Shown here: in pieces, positions 2,235-18,445 of the stretch
How the letters are laid out: every line of letters starts with the position of its first letter
How positions within the stretch are numbered: the stretch's first letter is position 1
Virus record (IMG/VR): IMGVR_UViG_3300009151_000527
Location: 1-20,022 of that record
DNA length: 20,022 nucleotides
From: a virus
Strand: one strand, 5' to 3'
Translations under genes and position numbers: made by a program
The notes under the pieces: generated by a model
Database searches by the model: none
Told to the model about the DNA's origin: nothing
Seen by the model: the letters and a program-made list of their open reading frames with translations, nothing else

Positions 2235-3455
2235 ATGAGTATTGCTCAAGGTATTAATAAAGTTCTTGTATTTTTCAAGCAAACAGGACTAGGTGTTCCA
2301 GGAACCGTTGGAGCTCATACGGGTTCACAAGCTATGAGACGTGAAACTGGTATTGGTAAATTAGCAGTAGCTAACTTTGCAAATACAGAACTAACCACTT
2401 TTCAACAATCAACTGGTAAGCAACACGGCTTAAGAAGTGCTTCTTATGCTTTAACAGGTTTATTATCGCCTAATACTTATTCAACTTTGTTTTCTTCATT
2501 GTTGCGTAAAGTATTTACTGCTACAACTGCATTAACTGCTTTAGCTTTAACTACTGCTGGTACTCCAGGAGCTTATACTATTACAGGTACAGGGTTTCTT
2601 ACTGGTGGTTTAAAGATTGGTGATGTTATACGTTTATCAGTTGGTACTGGTTTAAATGCTGATAACATTAATAAGAATTTTCTTATTATTAACCTAACTG
2701 CAACCGTTATTACTTTTTCTGTAATTAATGGAACTACTATTACTGTTGGTACAGGTACAGGTTATACTTTATCTGTTCCTGGAAAGAAAGTAATAGCACC
2801 TTTAAGTGGTCAGACTCAAGAATATTGGACTATTGAAGAATGGCAAGCTGATATTGCTCAATCAGAATTATTTACGGATATGGTAATGGCTTCCGCTGAC
2901 ATTACTTTACCTAGTTCTGGTAATACTACTTGTGCATTTAACTTGGCTGGTTTGAATAGAACTACTGGTGCAACTCAAGTTTTAACTACACCTACTGCTG
3001 TTACTACAACTCCTGTTTTGACTGCTGTTCAAGGTGAAGTTATAGTTAATGGTCTTGTTGTAGCTAACATTACTGGTGCTACTATTAAAATTGATTGTGC
3101 TGCTGCTAATATGGGCGGTGTTATAGGAACTAACTTTTCACCAGATGTACAACGTCAAGTTATTTCAGTATCAGGTCAAATTACTGCATTTTATCAAGAT
3201 GGTATTCTTCCTGGATATTTTGATGCTGCAACTCCAATTAACATAATTATTGTGGTTGCTAATGATAGTACCGCTGCAACGGATTTTGTATCATTTTCAA
3301 TGTCATCCGTTATTTTTGATGGTGATGATAAAGATGATGGTCAAAAAGGTGTTGTTAGAACATATCCTTTTACTGCTAGAATGAACCCTAATGGTGGTGC
3401 TGCTTTAGCAAATGACCAAACTATTATTAGTATTCAAGATAGTCAAGCTGCATAA
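2235..3455 (+). CDS. Major tail tube protein
   Basis: This is the 406-aa tail tube subunit, which polymerises into hexameric rings around the tape measure. The N-terminus ('VLVFFKQTGLGVPGT...QAMRRETG') and C-terminus ('KGVVRTYPFTARMNPNGGAA' ending in 'QTIISIQDSQA') match the Phage_tube_2-type proteins of lambda-like siphoviruses. Residues about 106-184 form a Thr/Gly-rich insert with a 'GFLTGGLKIGDVIRLS' motif, a beta module commonly inserted in this family. The following 'YWTIEEWQADI' returns to the core tube fold. A strong Shine-Dalgarno (AGGAG) precedes the ATG. A stable hairpin lies directly after the gene and may favour high expression of this abundant protein. Confidence 0.85.
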   Translation: MSIAQGINKVLVFFKQTGLGVPGTVGAHTGSQAMRRETGIGKLAVANFANTELTTFQQSTGKQHGLRSASYALTGLLSPNTYSTLFSSLLRKVFTATTALTALALTTAGTPGAYTITGTGFLTGGLKIGDVIRLSVGTGLNADNINKNFLIINLTATVITFSVINGTTITVGTGTGYTLSVPGKKVIAPLSGQTQEYWTIEEWQADIAQSELFTDMVMASADITLPSSGNTTCAFNLAGLNRTTGATQVLTTPTAVTTTPVLTAVQGEVIVNGLVVANITGATIKIDCAAANMGGVIGTNFSPDVQRQVISVSGQITAFYQDGILPGYFDAATPINIIIVVANDSTAATDFVSFSMSSVIFDGDDKDDGQKGVVRTYPFTARMNPNGGAALANDQTIISIQDSQAA

Positions 3456-3471
3456 GTTGTAAATGTTTTAA

Positions 3472-3496
3472 AACGCCTGTACACTGTATGGGCGTT
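3472..3496 (+). terminator. Hairpin after the major tail protein gene (leaky terminator or mRNA-stabilising stem)
   Basis: AACGCC/GGCGTT followed by TGTAC/GTATG forms an 11-bp stem (two G-T wobbles) with a 3-nt loop in the 70-bp gap before the chaperone gene. The tail after it (CTTACTT) is only moderately T-rich, so complete termination is doubtful. Lowering readthrough or protecting the upstream mRNA 3' end is more plausible, because downstream tail genes need transcript and no strong promoter is visible in the gap. Confidence 0.5.
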
Positions 3497-3525
3497 CTTA
3501 CTTAAATAAATAGGATATAATTATA

Positions 3526-3951
3526 ATGACTTCAACCACACAACCAGAAAAAGCTTTACCCTCAATCCATGATTTTAATGCTACTAAGCAATCCGAGATT
3601 GGTTTTGAATTTGAATATGAAAATGAACTTGGTAAAGGTACAGGTTTTTTTATTACTGTTATTGGCGACCAAGCTGAATCTGTTAAAAAGGCAGTTTTTG
3701 CTAAGATTAATAAAGAACGTAATCAAGCTGCTATACTTAAAAAACGGGGAAAGGATGAACCTGTTAAAACTATCGAAGAACTAATTGAAGATAATATTGA
3801 GGGTATTGCTGCTTGTATTATTGATTGGCGTGGTGTTGCTGAACCTTATACTCAAGAATCAGCATTTTTAATTTGCCAAAATAATAAATTAATTTATGAC
3901 CAAGTAAAGGCTGCTTCGGAAAACCTTGCAAATTTTACCAAGAGCAAATAG
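3526..3951 (+). CDS. G: Tail assembly chaperone, short form (gpG-like)
   Basis: The 141-aa product is the short tail assembly chaperone, almost the length of lambda gpG (140 aa). It is thought to coat the tape measure and help recruit tail tube subunits, without entering the mature virion. No sequence motif is strongly diagnostic. The support is position between tube and tape measure genes, size, the mixed helical/strand make-up ('FEFEYENELGKGTGFFITV', 'IEGIAACIIDWRGV'), and a textbook -1 frameshift site near its 3' end. AGGA lies 10 bases before the ATG. The normal stop is TAG at 3949-3951. Ribosomes that slip at 3930-3936 make the longer fusion described separately. Confidence 0.85.
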   Translation: MTSTTQPEKALPSIHDFNATKQSEIGFEFEYENELGKGTGFFITVIGDQAESVKKAVFAKINKERNQAAILKKRGKDEPVKTIEELIEDNIEGIAACIIDWRGVAEPYTQESAFLICQNNKLIYDQVKAASENLANFTKSK

Positions 3952-4298
3952 AAGATTTACTTTTATTTGCCGAATCAGAATTTTTATTAAGTGAAACAGA
4001 AGGTGATGGGGAAAGTTTACGAAATCACCTTGAATCAATTTATAGGCAAACTGGTAAAAAACCTGCGCAATTAGAACAAATAGAATTCCCACATACAATG
4101 ATTCTTGTGTGGGAATCCTTTAAAAGTTTAAACCAAACTCGAACTTATTCTGAAGTTAGAGCTAATCCTATAAGTTATTCTGAAATAATGGCTTGGAGTA
4201 TTTTAACAGATACAATTCTTACACCAAAAGAGATTTATATTTTAAAATTACTAGATAATTCATTTTTAGTTCATTTAGCAAAACAAAGTAAGGAATAG
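3526..4298 (+). CDS. GT: Tail assembly chaperone, frameshifted fusion (gpGT-like)
   Basis: A -1 shift at 3930-3936 joins the first 137 codons of the G-like frame to a downstream frame that is open from 3900 to the TGA/TAG-free end at 4298. The product is about 257 aa. The junction reads ...ENLANF then YQEQIEDLLLFAESE. The T-like part continues through 'GKKPAQLEQIEFPHTM' to 'MAWSILTDTILTPKEIYILK', a segment typical of T-type domains, and ends 'KLLDNSFLVHLAKQSKE'. In lambda the T part contacts tail tube subunits while G binds the tape measure. A naive gene call would start at the internal ATG 4098 (66 aa) and miss about 54 codons of T. The tape measure gene starts four bases after its stop. Confidence 0.85.
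3930..3970 (+). promoter_or_regulatory. Programmed -1 ribosomal frameshift signal
   Basis: The heptamer AAATTTT (3930-3936) sits in the zero frame as A_AAT_TTT, which fits the X_XXY_YYZ rule for tandem slippage exactly. After a 7-nt spacer (3937-3943) there is an 11-bp stem: GCAAATA (3944-3950) plus GAAG (3951-3954) pair with CTTT (3960-3963) plus TATTTGC (3964-3970), with one G-T pair and a 5-nt loop (ATTTA). The zero-frame TAG (3949-3951) lies inside the 5' arm. All three elements are read directly from the sequence. The role follows from the conserved G/GT arrangement of long-tailed phages. Confidence 0.88.
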
Positions 4299-4302
4299 GT
4301 TT

Positions 4303-7300
4303 ATGCAGACTTTAGCTAGTTTAAATATTGAAGTTACAAATACTGGAATTAATGAAACAAATTCCGCATTAACTAGCCTTCTCAATAAAGCTAATAATGT
4401 CCAACTTGCAACGGAAAATTTAACTAAAGCTAATGTTGTATTTGAAACAGGTAATAAAAAGGCAGCCAGTTCCTATACGGATATGGTTGCTAAATTAACA
4501 CAATCAAAATCAGCCTATGATTCTTTACAAATGGCTTTACAAGGTTTCACTGATAAACAAATTAAACATATTCAATTTTTAACTGCTGAAAATGAAGCAC
4601 TTAAAATAAACGAACAAATGACTAAGGAAGGTTATACAAAAAAATATGACTATGATAAAGATTATTATAATGCCTTACAGGAAAATGCTAAAAGAAATAA
4701 TTTAATTCATTCTGAAGCACTTAAAATAAATGAAGCATTAGATAAACAATCATACGCTACTAAGTTGCAGTATGATAAAGAATACTTTTTTGCGCTTCAA
4801 GAAAATGCTAAAAGAAATGCAATAATTATTGCAGAAAATGCTGCAACTGCTGCTAAGGTTGCTGCTGAAGCTGCTAAAATTAGACAAACTTCTAGAAATA
4901 CTTCCGCTGGTATTTTTGTAGATGAATCAAACCCATTAGTACAACAACTCAATCAAAACTTAGCATTGGAATCTTCCATTAGACAACATGGTATAGATAA
5001 TATACGAACACAAGAACTACAGTCGTCTCAAATTCAAATTGAAATACGAAGTCGTTTAAATGAAAGATTATTAGAATTAGAAGCCAAGTTAAAGGATGGT
5101 ACTATTGGTAATCGTGGTCAAGCTAATGTTATGAGACAACAATCTTTAAGAATAGCTGAACAAGAATTAACTTCAAATAATCTACTTATAGAATCTCAAC
5201 GTGCTGTAAATGAGGAATTAAAGAAATCCGTTACTACTCACGACCATTCTAACCAATTAATGACAAGAACAATTTCTATTATGGCTGCAATGGCATCATA
5301 TCGAATTGTTAGTGCTTTTATTGAAGTACCTATGGAAGTACTTAAGACTAATATTGAAATGGAAAAACTTAATATTTTATTAGAAGGTGTTACAGGTTCT
5401 GTACAAAACGCAAGATTAGAATTTAATCGTTTATTAGCATTAGATATTAAAACCCCTTTTGATATTAAAGGTTTAACTGAGACCTTTGTTATGTTAAAGA
5501 ATTATGGGCTTGAACCAACTGAAATGGTAATGAAGTCCTTAACTGATAGTGTGGCTAAATTAGGCGGTGGTACTGAACAGTTAATAGGTATAGGTAGGCA
5601 GTTGGGTCAAGCTTGGGCAAAAGACAAGCTACAGCAAATAGACATGCGACCTATGGTTGAAAATGGTTTACCTGTAATTAGTTTATTGGCTAGTGCTTTA
5701 AAAACAAGTACTTCTGAAATTCTTGCAATGTCAGCAGCAGGTACTATAGGTAGGCAAGAAATGTTATTACTTTTTGCTGAAATGCAAAAAGACGCACCTA
5801 ATGCTGCTGCAAGAAACATGGATACTTTGCGTGGTTCTTTATCAAACATAACTACAGCATGGACACAATTTCAGAATGCTATATTAGAAGATAAATCTGA
5901 GGGTGTACTAAAACGTATTTTTGAAAGTTGGAGTTCAACGCTATTCAAATGGCGTGATGATATTTCTGGTATTGTTAATCAAACAAATGCAATGGCAGAA
6001 AATTTGATGAAGTTGGAAAGTGTTAGGGCAAGGATTGCTAAAGTTGAAAAAAGTCCCCTTATAGGTGAAATTGCTTCTACTATGGGTATAGGTAGTAGTG
6101 TAGCTGATTTAAAAGAGCAGGAACGAGATCTTTTATCAACTCAAGATAAAATTCTTACTGCTATGGAAAACGAAAGTCTTGCTGCTTATAAACTTAAGAA
6201 CACTTCTGAATCAAAATTAGAACTTGATAAAAAAGCACTTGAACTTTCTGAAAAACAAGAAAAAGCTTTAATTAGACAATTAGAATTTGAGGGCAAAATA
6301 AACCAATCTAAAATGGAACTTGCTAATGCAGTTATTGATGCTCAAATAAAAGATCAACAAAGATTAAATACTACTAAAGTTGCTGGTTATGAATTAGAAC
6401 GTAAACAAAATGATGAAGCTTTGAGTAGAAATGAAATTTCAGCCAAACATAGATATGATGTTGAAATTGATTTAATTCAAAAACTTAAATCTGCGGAAAT
6501 TCAAAAACTTAATGACATTGAAAGTTTAGAAAAACAAAAAGTAGCTACTAAAGTTTTAGATGTTGATAAAGCTTGGCTTGCAGTATTAAAAGTTGAGGAT
6601 GATTCTGGTAAAAAAGGAACCGTTAATAAATCATCTATGGCAATGGGTCCTGGACAAGCAATGCCTAGAACTTTGGCTGGTATCAACGAAAAAGGAGTAG
6701 ATGTTGGTGTAGGTTTTGGTGTAGCTAGATTTAAACCTGCTGTTGATGAAAACCTAATGGGTATGTTAGGTGATTATAAAAAAGTTCAAGATTTTGCCAC
6801 ACGGCATGATGCTGAACTAAAAGAATGGTCTGAAAAATATTGGAAAGCTTTAGTTTTAAATTATGGAAGTGTTGAAGAAGCTTTAAAGCATTATGGTGAT
6901 GGTACAGTTGACTATAGTAATAAGGTTATGGCAGCTTACGCTATGATAACAGGTGCTACAAAAGACCAAATTAAATTAGATTCCGATGCAAAAGATACTC
7001 TTGATGATAAAGCAAAAGCAACAGCTAAATATGCTGCTATGGAACAAGATGCACGAAATAAACTAATTAAATCTTCTTATGAATATCAAAAGATGTTGGA
7101 AGAAGAGCAATTAAAAACTATTAAAATTACAGGTACTTCAAAACAGTATAGGGATGCTAACTTAGCTTATCAAGAAAAGTATAATGTTGAATTACAAACA
7201 GCTATAGCTATTCACGATAAAGTAGGTGAGGGTATAATTAGAACTCGTATGGCTGCTGAGAATAAACAACCGTTTTATGATCTTCAAAAGGATAATGATT

Positions 7301-8097
7301 CAATTATTCAAATGGGGGAAACACAATCCAAATTTAATGACCAATTACTTAAAACTCGTGCTTTGTTAGAAGACGGTACTATTAAGGAAAGTGAGTTTAA
7401 AGCCGAAGTGGGTAAGTTAGCTAAAGCTTATAATGAACAATTTATAGAACCTGCTGAAACTTGGACTAAAAGAATGAGTCAATTTGCAATTCAAGCTGCA
7501 AGAAATATGCAAACAGGCTTTGCTCAATGGCTTTATGATCCATTTAAGGATGGACTTAAAGGTATGCTTAGTGGTTTTATAGATATGTTGCGTAAAATGG
7601 TCGCTGAAGCTGCTGCTGCTAAAATTTTTGATTCACTTTTAGGTACTAAAAATTCTAAAGGTCAAAATACAGGTGGACTTTTAGATAAACTATTTTCAGG
7701 TTTTGGTAGTGCTGCTACTACTGCTATTGTTGCTGCTGATGGTGGTGTATTTTCAGGAAAAGGTATTTCAGGCTACTCAGGAAGTGTGGTTAGTTCACCT
7801 ACAGTATTTCCATTTGCAAATGGTACTGGTTTAATGGGTGAAGCTGGTCCTGAAGCTGTTTTACCATTAAAAAGAACCCCTTCTGGAGCTTTAGGTGTTC
7901 AAACGTCTGGTAATAAAAGTAGCGGTGATACTATAAACAATGTTACTATTAATGTACAAGCTGCTAAAGGGGATAGTCCTACTGATACTGGTAATAAAGC
8001 TGCTGAAGCATTTATGAGAAGTATAGCAAAGCAGGAAATTACAAGTGCTAATCGTCCTGGAAATCAGTTAAATAGAACTACTACTTTTGGAGCTTAG
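4303..8097 (+). CDS. H: Tail tape measure protein
   Basis: This is the largest tail-internal protein, 1264 aa. It sets tail length and is injected ahead of the DNA. The N-terminal 320 residues are coiled-coil-like and contain a 40-residue tandem duplication (4594-4833). A hydrophobic stretch at about 320-350 precedes the conserved tape-measure domain (about 346-526; 'LLALDIKTPFDIKGLTETF', 'RQLGQAWAKDKLQQIDMRPM', 'LRGSLSNITTAWTQFQ'). A long helical, Lys/Glu-rich region follows. The C-terminus has the lambda-type segment 'MQTGFAQWLYDPFKDGLKGM' and the signature 'GLMGEAGPEAVLPLKR' (from residue 1177), which lies in the part usually processed or near the tip. The Shine-Dalgarno AGGA is a few bases before the ATG, directly after the T frame. 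Confidence 0.93.
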   Translation: MQTLASLNIEVTNTGINETNSALTSLLNKANNVQLATENLTKANVVFETGNKKAASSYTDMVAKLTQSKSAYDSLQMALQGFTDKQIKHIQFLTAENEALKINEQMTKEGYTKKYDYDKDYYNALQENAKRNNLIHSEALKINEALDKQSYATKLQYDKEYFFALQENAKRNAIIIAENAATAAKVAAEAAKIRQTSRNTSAGIFVDESNPLVQQLNQNLALESSIRQHGIDNIRTQELQSSQIQIEIRSRLNERLLELEAKLKDGTIGNRGQANVMRQQSLRIAEQELTSNNLLIESQRAVNEELKKSVTTHDHSNQLMTRTISIMAAMASYRIVSAFIEVPMEVLKTNIEMEKLNILLEGVTGSVQNARLEFNRLLALDIKTPFDIKGLTETFVMLKNYGLEPTEMVMKSLTDSVAKLGGGTEQLIGIGRQLGQAWAKDKLQQIDMRPMVENGLPVISLLASALKTSTSEILAMSAAGTIGRQEMLLLFAEMQKDAPNAAARNMDTLRGSLSNITTAWTQFQNAILEDKSEGVLKRIFESWSSTLFKWRDDISGIVNQTNAMAENLMKLESVRARIAKVEKSPLIGEIASTMGIGSSVADLKEQERDLLSTQDKILTAMENESLAAYKLKNTSESKLELDKKALELSEKQEKALIRQLEFEGKINQSKMELANAVIDAQIKDQQRLNTTKVAGYELERKQNDEALSRNEISAKHRYDVEIDLIQKLKSAEIQKLNDIESLEKQKVATKVLDVDKAWLAVLKVEDDSGKKGTVNKSSMAMGPGQAMPRTLAGINEKGVDVGVGFGVARFKPAVDENLMGMLGDYKKVQDFATRHDAELKEWSEKYWKALVLNYGSVEEALKHYGDGTVDYSNKVMAAYAMITGATKDQIKLDSDAKDTLDDKAKATAKYAAMEQDARNKLIKSSYEYQKMLEEEQLKTIKITGTSKQYRDANLAYQEKYNVELQTAIAIHDKVGEGIIRTRMAAENKQPFYDLQKDNDSIIQMGETQSKFNDQLLKTRALLEDGTIKESEFKAEVGKLAKAYNEQFIEPAETWTKRMSQFAIQAARNMQTGFAQWLYDPFKDGLKGMLSGFIDMLRKMVAEAAAAKIFDSLLGTKNSKGQNTGGLLDKLFSGFGSAATTAIVAADGGVFSGKGISGYSGSVVSSPTVFPFANGTGLMGEAGPEAVLPLKRTPSGALGVQTSGNKSSGDTINNVTINVQAAKGDSPTDTGNKAAEAFMRSIAKQEITSANRPGNQLNRTTTFGA
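4594..4833 (+). repeat. 120-nt tandem duplication inside the tape measure gene
   Basis: Copy 1 (4594-4713) and copy 2 (4714-4833) both encode 40 residues starting EALKINE and ending near ALQENAKRN. The DNA at the copy starts (GAAGCACTTAAAATAAA) and near the ends (GAAAATGCTAAAAGAAAT) is nearly identical, while the middles have diverged. The period is exactly 40 codons, with no frame change. Confidence 0.85.
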
Positions 8098-17491: not shown

Positions 17492-18445
17492 ATGGCAGTT
17501 GATTCAACTGATATAGCAAATCTTTTAAAAAATGTTGATCTTAAATCTTTAATGGGTGGTGGTGCTATGGGTGGTTCAGATACAGGTCTAGGTGGTGGTG
17601 TTTTAGGTGCAGTTCTTATTGGTGCTTTATTGCCGAGGTTACTAGGAGACCAAAATGGGACGGCTGCAACTGTTGCGGCTGCTAATGCGGCTCATGTTTT
17701 AACTGCTTCTGATGTTAATACTGCAATCACTACAGCTCTTAATGGTCAAACATTAGGTAATGTTCAAGGTGAAATTTGGAAAGCGGAAGGTAATGTTCAA
17801 GCTGCTATTTCAGCCGCATCTAACACCGCTGCTATTAACACCTTAAATGCTGAGATTGCTAACATACAAGGTCAAGGTAATATCTTAGCTGATATTAACC
17901 GTACCTCTACTGACTCTGCAACTCAAAATGCTTTAATTACTTCTGCTGTTAATCAAACTGGTTGGGAAGGTGTAAATGCTACCACAACTGCTGCTGCTAA
18001 TGTAATTGCTTCTGCAACTGCTAATACAGCTTCATTGTTAGCAACTACTAATGCTTTGGCTACACAAGCTGCTACTAATGCTGCTGATGCTACTTTAGGC
18101 GTGCTTCAAGCTAAGTATGACACTTTAATTGCTGTTGGTAACGATGGTGACAAGACTCGTGCTTTAATTGAAGGAATTAGTACTGCTAGTTTGAATCGTC
18201 AAATTATAGTTGCTGATAACCGTATTGCAGAACTTTTAGGGGATAGAAATACTGCTAAAGGTGGAATTGAAATTAATACTTCAGTCAACCAAGCAGTGGC
18301 TCAATCTCAAGCACAGCAACAAGCTATAGCGACTAATGGTCTTTTGACTCAACTGTTGGCATCTGTTCAACACAACACTCAAAGCACTGTGAATTTAGGC
18401 ACTATGATTGGTTCTGGTCAAACTGCAACTAACGTAAAGTCATAA
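17492..18445 (+). CDS. Ala-rich phage protein with Gly-rich hydrophobic N-terminus, unknown function
   Basis: This 317-aa protein is strikingly rich in Ala, Asn, Thr and Gln. Residues 21-37 are Gly-rich, followed by a hydrophobic stretch 'GVLGAVLIGALLPRLLG' (about 36-52) that could be membrane-associated. Residues 60-210 form loose Ala/Asn/Thr-rich repeats with coiled-coil character. 'NDGDKTRALIEGISTASLNR' and 'QIIVADNRIAELLGDR' (217-252) resemble a C-terminal helix found in a widespread group of Gly-rich phage proteins of unknown function, often encoded near tail genes. The Shine-Dalgarno GGAG is seven bases from the ATG. There are no enzyme motifs. A structural or membrane-linked role is possible but unproven. 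Confidence 0.65.
   Translation: MAVDSTDIANLLKNVDLKSLMGGGAMGGSDTGLGGGVLGAVLIGALLPRLLGDQNGTAATVAAANAAHVLTASDVNTAITTALNGQTLGNVQGEIWKAEGNVQAAISAASNTAAINTLNAEIANIQGQGNILADINRTSTDSATQNALITSAVNQTGWEGVNATTTAAANVIASATANTASLLATTNALATQAATNAADATLGVLQAKYDTLIAVGNDGDKTRALIEGISTASLNRQIIVADNRIAELLGDRNTAKGGIEINTSVNQAVAQSQAQQQAIATNGLLTQLLASVQHNTQSTVNLGTMIGSGQTATNVKS

Follow-up and report, generated by a model that had tools for sequence, protein, structure and literature searches.

A candidate -1 frameshift site with a stop codon in its hairpin at a phage tail assembly chaperone locus, and relatives whose downstream frame lies in either direction

Between the tail tube and tape measure genes of the IMG/VR virus record IMGVR_UViG_3300009151_000527 lie two overlapping open reading frames (ORFs), of which the second is in the -1 frame and has no conserved start of its own. 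How is this second frame translated? The window analysed is the whole stretch of DNA, a self-standing viral record of 20,022 bp holding a siphovirus tail module, in which genes for the tail terminator (PF13554), the tube and the tape measure protein flank the chaperone ORFs. The features at issue are the following.

2235..3455, + strand: tail tube protein gene, upstream context (PF18906 Phage_tube_2, E 7.3e-10)
3526..3951, + strand: ORF for a G-like tail assembly chaperone, zero frame, 141 aa (phrog_313 'Tail assembly chaperone', E 5e-15)
3930..3936, + strand: slippery heptamer AAATTTT, phase A_AAT_TTT (Asn-Phe codons), in phase with ORF 3526-3951
3933..4298, + strand: T-like C-terminal domain, -1 frame (PF23812 Phage_TAC_18, E 5.9e-14)
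3937..3943, + strand: spacer ACCAAGA, 7 nt
3944..3970, + strand: putative stimulatory hairpin, an 11-bp stem (3944-3954 with 3960-3970) and a 5-nt loop (3955-3959)
3949..3951, + strand: zero-frame TAG stop, within the 5' arm of the stem
4303..8097, + strand: tape measure protein gene, 1264 aa, directly downstream (PF20155 TMP_3, E 3.1e-27)

Both parts of the locus fall in tail assembly chaperone families (phrog_313 and PF23812), and no stop codon interrupts the -1 frame between 3900 and 4298. Relatives of the G-like ORF were found at identities from 98 down to 22-24% in alignments. The T part also matched phrog_4966 (positions 197-305 of 311, E 4.4e-14), a family whose length would accommodate G and T as a single chain. 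A sequence-only reading of this DNA had described the heptamer, its phase, the 7-nt spacer, the 11-bp stem, the 5-nt loop and the buried TAG, and each was recovered exact to the base. Its assignment of the site to a chaperone -1 frameshift is backed by domain identity, gene order, the startless -1 frame, purifying selection and a heptamer and stem that are conserved among close relatives; the locus very probably carries a programmed -1 ribosomal frameshift of the lambda G/GT type, making a siphovirus tail assembly chaperone pair. The heptamer does differ from that of lambda, GGGAAAG, as the same reading had pointed out, but this is no oddity of one phage, since AAATTTT or AAATTTC is what the family has most often at this place (24 of 41 -1 rows).

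Starting from the observed anatomy, domain identity, conservation and selection on the -1 frame, we infer that slippage occurs, and with it an efficiency and roles for the hairpin and the buried stop, as follows. Most ribosomes would translate 3526-3951 and terminate at the TAG, yielding the 141-aa G-like chaperone. A minority would slip back by one base, with tRNA-Asn and tRNA-Phe on A_AAU_UUU re-pairing with AAA and UUU, aided by the hairpin 7 nt downstream, and would continue to 4298, producing a GT-like fusion protein of about 257 aa. If the roles are those known from lambda, G would bind the tape measure protein, whereas T would recruit the subunit of the tail tube. With the TAG in the 5' arm, unshifted ribosomes would leave while on the hairpin, which most likely lets it refold for the next ribosome.

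Two other in-phase heptamers in the G ORF were considered as slip sites and rejected. GGGAAAG at 3747-3753 is soon followed by -1 stops, at 3756 and 3765, and is absent from the relative L004; it is probably inert, the -1 frame closing at 3756. A TTTTTTT at 3645 likewise has -1 stops soon after it, at 3675 and 3684. Upstream of the slip site no Shine-Dalgarno-like stimulator was apparent by eye. Searches found no intrinsic terminator within 3300-4400, and no Rfam match or tRNA gene in the window. An inverted repeat, AACGCC...GGCGTT, was noticed by eye at 3472-3496 between the tail tube and chaperone genes; the terminator search did not report it. At 17492-18445, close to where the structural genes end, an Ala-rich protein of 317 aa is encoded for which Pfam gave no match at E values up to 1.

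The hairpin and the stop codon within it

Heptamers of the X_XXY_YYZ form are common in the A+T-rich window, with 50 in phase at 6086 in-phase positions in 19 ORFs. Of the 50, that at 3930 alone is followed, 4-10 nt later, by a stem of 11 or more contiguous pairs; such stems follow 23 of the 6086 positions, so that about 0.19 would be expected among 50 heptamers. The stem contains one G-U and only three G-C pairs. Folding of 3937-3975 gave -11 kcal/mol, a stability reached by none of 200 dinucleotide shuffles (z -7.07), a score that exaggerates the hairpin because its arms are constrained by both reading frames. Over a 121-nt context the fold was unremarkable overall (z -0.83), yet the same stem appeared.

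Constraint from two frames raises an alternative that accepts the heptamer as a functional -1 site and takes the hairpin and buried stop for roleless by-products of dual coding (Gln-Ile-Glu in the -1 frame, Lys-stop in the zero frame and Leu-Phe-Ala further on). A synonymous recoding test was used in which the -1 protein was preserved, the sequence as far as the stop was left unchanged and each locus was given its own codon usage; an earlier version with the codon usage of the window for all loci was set aside because it was inflated for G+C-rich relatives. From the window itself the alternative draws support, as 184 of 1000 recodings folded equally well over 48 nt (238 of 500 over 72 nt), no better than coding alone allows; the window by itself is thus no proof of a selected hairpin. 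Relatives were not uniform. Few recodings folded as well in L044 (3/1000), L043 (4/1000), L030 (11/1000) and L039 (48/1000), results that the by-product account does not anticipate in the first three; the weaker cases were L029 (55/1000), L041 (108/1000), L026 (110/1000) and L004 (247/1000).

To collect these relatives, the G and T proteins were used as queries against viral contigs and phage records. Searching viral contigs with a DNA pattern of the signal returned 16 stretches, in none of which the stop falls at the signal, and genome contigs scanned with the G alignment yielded no relative. The clade of the window comprises nine aligned rows (the window, L004, L026, L029, L030, L039, L041, L043 and L044, with L041 placed by its T part). 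AAATTTT or AAATTTC is present in all nine, AAATTT being invariant, and in all nine a stem begins 5-7 nt past the heptamer. Heptamer and stem have been retained although dS in T exceeds 1.2 between the window and L026, L039 and L043. Among the eight distinct rows, 91.7% of stem cells pair, vs 34-59% with a slid partner; in L043 and L044 the stem persists with a single bulged base, which the pair count scores partly as broken. Six of the 12 pairs never vary, and three have changed on both sides, which speaks against a by-product, the covariation being modest in that its score was reached by 10 of 500 shuffles and the percentage paired by 20 of 500, with rows that are related.

Outside this clade the picture changes. 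The sequence-only reading had proposed comparing related phages for heptamer and stem, and of the two the heptamer was kept, while the stem was kept only in the window's own clade, several distant -1 relatives being without it. In L045-L051, L054, L058, L032 and L034 the heptamer is present and the stem was not beyond chance in the recoding test; that many family members share the heptamer without the stem favours the by-product account. Against it, a different and strong structure follows the -1 site of L084 (0/500). A strong structure of different sequence is also present in L059 (4/1000).

The first zero-frame stop lies inside the 5' arm in eight of the nine clade rows. In the exception (L030:1896-1935), the first TAG comes 9 nt earlier than usual, immediately ahead of a stem that is retained together with its own in-frame TAG; stop burial is thus not strictly conserved, a point in favour of a roleless stop. 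Conversely, the TAG arises from an Ile codon that is ATA in all nine rows, vs 162 of 432 Ile codons in 14 ORFs of the window, a conservation that can reflect selection for the stop, for pairing, or for both. A further argument against the by-product account comes from L041 (1064-1854), a chimera whose G is 22% identical to that of the window and 45% to that of L050, whereas its T is 50% identical to that of the window and 54% to that of L043. Its G comes from another clade, yet its T and hairpin belong to that of the window, and the two parts meet close to the slip site; this suggests recombination near that point, in which the hairpin moved together with T. Support for a selected hairpin comes from the clade taken together, not from the window alone. 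We judge that the hairpin probably matters, and that an origin of hairpin and stop as mere by-products is rather unlikely.

The -1 frame as protein

If T were instead a separately initiated gene packed tightly against G, no frameshift would be needed. A 66-aa ORF with an ATG at 4098 does exist, and the annotators of related phages list such short ORFs. The sequence-only reading had predicted that gene callers would report only this ORF, and the ORF list of the window agrees. Among nine annotated phage regions bearing this T domain (a tenth carries no annotation at all), none has a joined CDS; T is annotated as a separate short ORF in eight and is unannotated in Limnohabitans phage DC31.

The -1 frame itself argues otherwise. 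In the window it has no ATG, GTG or TTG before 4098, i.e. for 168 nt after the slip site. Across 29 loci, the first start codon of the T frame lies anywhere from 15 to 240 nt downstream (there is none for 240 nt in L044), so that start positions are not conserved, whereas heptamer and frame are. T matches begin at query residue 1 (window 3933) in 32 of 32 loci; the conserved protein sequence thus starts at the slip site, 55 codons ahead of the ATG at 4098. After the stop the T frame is under purifying selection, with dN/dS of about 0.07-0.31 in six pairs (among them window and L004, dN 0.051/dS 0.189; window and L026, dN 0.393/dS 1.355; L043 and L044, dN 0.026/dS 0.379). A separately initiated T gene is accordingly very improbable.

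Transcriptional slippage at the T run would likewise yield a mixture with a -1 product, but the run is of four T only and the AAA part would need no conserving, yet AAATTT is found in all nine clade rows; we give this explanation almost no weight. Nor is there any real likelihood that a continuous gene was broken in two by faulty sequencing or assembly, as the same split recurs in independent contigs and named phage isolates, and the same heptamer in close relatives.

Direction of the shift across the family

The family was tallied in 55 rows, five of which duplicate an earlier row around the stop. Left out were further copies of included contigs (L001-L003, L005-L011, L022-L025, L027, L028 and L035-L038), near-copies (L013, L040, L053, L055-L057, L066 and L083), L049 (its G cut by the contig end), L018, L020, L033 (the same as L032) and the 16 pattern matches. 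T lies in the -1 frame in 41 of the 55 rows and in the +1 frame in the other 14. An X_XXY_YYZ heptamer within the overlap was found in 38 of the 41 -1 rows, 24 of which include AAATTTT or AAATTTC and the rest GGGAAAC, GGGAAAG, TTTTTTG or TTTTTTC; in the three remaining -1 rows (L017, L061 and L062) the overlap holds no such heptamer. The heptamer of L019 is 109 nt before the stop.

The +1 rows share a different site. TTT_CGA is common to 13 of the 14, as AAC_TTT_CGA in 12 and AAT_TTT_CGA in one, and the rows with it include the named phages Limnohabitans DC31 and Curvibacter P26059A. In the region of the G stop, T is in +1 with TTT_CGA at Asn-Phe codons in L014, L015, L083 and L085-L095. In -1 and +1 members alike, the slip site encodes Asn-Phe without exception (5 of 5 divergent G proteins). 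The sequence-only reading had named relatives with a +1 arrangement lacking heptamer and stem as a case against its -1 shift. Relatives in +1 without the heptamer do exist (14 of 55), and they leave the -1 reading of the window standing because they belong to another clade with a different conserved site, TTT_CGA. For these phages we infer that tRNA-Phe likely moves from UUU onto UUC during a pause at CGA. In P26059A this codon is not conspicuously rare (62 of 9339 codons), which keeps the pause a conjectural step; formally, the +1 reading could equally be one of -2. Structures 3' of the +1 sites were mixed, with 0 to 369 of 500 recodings folding as well at 10 loci.

A tree was built from 54 rows (the 55 minus L019) by a short search with SH-aLRT support. 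Three changes of direction are needed on it, two of them forced by starred branches; one of the three depends on L102, which has a very long branch. Inside the +1 clade, L084, a -1 phage with A_AAT_TTT, is sister to P26059A (+1) with support of 100. What separates the two is small changes immediately 3' of TTT; from Phe on, the -1 reading is FSAEELEQA and the +1 reading FDPNDLEEA. In Pseudomonas phage PaMx28 (L020:1044-1830), the T frame is offset by +1 (or -2) from that of the G ORF and stays open over a long stretch upstream; direction may have changed there as well.

On balance we favour, by a modest degree, a view in which ribosomes can slip both ways at the Asn-Phe pair joining G to T, shifting -1 at A_AAU_UUY in most members and +1 at AAY_UUU_CGA in the sister clade, the direction having flipped at least twice through small indels just downstream, including that between P26059A (+1) and L084 (-1). 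In the window's clade, with its stop in the hairpin, termination would let the stem refold, a prokaryotic parallel to coronaviruses.

The analysis adds a complete frameshift annotation where gene callers and database annotators miss one in this phage family. Moreover, the related phages form a natural series in which slip site, hairpin, stop position and shift direction vary while the product is kept. This series makes testable both the effect in bacteria of a stop codon within a stimulatory stem and the way in which phages switch frameshift direction without losing the fusion protein.

Comparison with known systems

The lambda G/GT -1 frameshift and its counterparts in long-tailed phages were reportedly described by Xu, Hendrix and Duda in 2004. 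The window resembles the lambda arrangement (PMC5009743) in lying between the tail tube and tape measure genes, in its short zero-frame chaperone, in a C-terminal domain in the -1 frame and in an X_XXY_YYZ heptamer shortly before the first ORF ends; the likeness is one of arrangement and of chaperone families. Unlike lambda, the window has AAATTTT and an A+U-rich hairpin that holds the stop codon.

Chaperone frameshifts in long-tailed phages were familiar to the sequence-only reading, and one paper indeed describes -1 G/GT frameshifting as widely conserved there (PMC5009743). The same paper reports a very likely +1 tail-chaperone frameshift in the haloarchaeal tailed virus HSTV-2, and, for the coat genes of Listeria phages, +1 in PSA and -1 in A118 and A500 (PMC5009743). 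The site in the window thus adds to an already known kind. The SEA-PHAGES frameshifts on which PRFect was trained, mostly from tail chaperones, comprise 2368 backward and 350 forward motif cases (PMC10885494); the string AAATTT is absent from the main text of that paper. Open-licence literature gave no match for AAATTTT with frameshift and tail assembly, nor for the heptanucleotide motif; no phage paper on slippery frameshifting at AAAUUUU appeared there by title, and no title found described the slip site of the family.

A stop inside the stem already has a published parallel in SARS-CoV-2, where the zero-frame stop of ORF1a/1b lies a few codons past the slip site and is part of Stem 1 (PMC8168617). 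Moving this stop 15 nt away lowered frameshifting to 80% of wild type and removing it to 50%, an effect explained there by refolding after termination (PMC8168617). The window is similar in having its zero-frame stop soon after the slip site and within a stem, and its buried stop would most likely act by termination-linked refolding of the same sort, an interpretation by analogy. SARS-CoV-2 differs in its pseudoknot, its eukaryotic ribosome and an efficiency far above that of lambda, and the two are not related.

The unexpected part lies in the relatives, 14 of 55 of which have T in +1, with one -1 phage placed by the sequence tree within the +1 clade. As in HSTV-2 and the Listeria phages, direction differs for the same kind of product; unlike those cases, the family described here shows both directions at one codon pair in sister phages.
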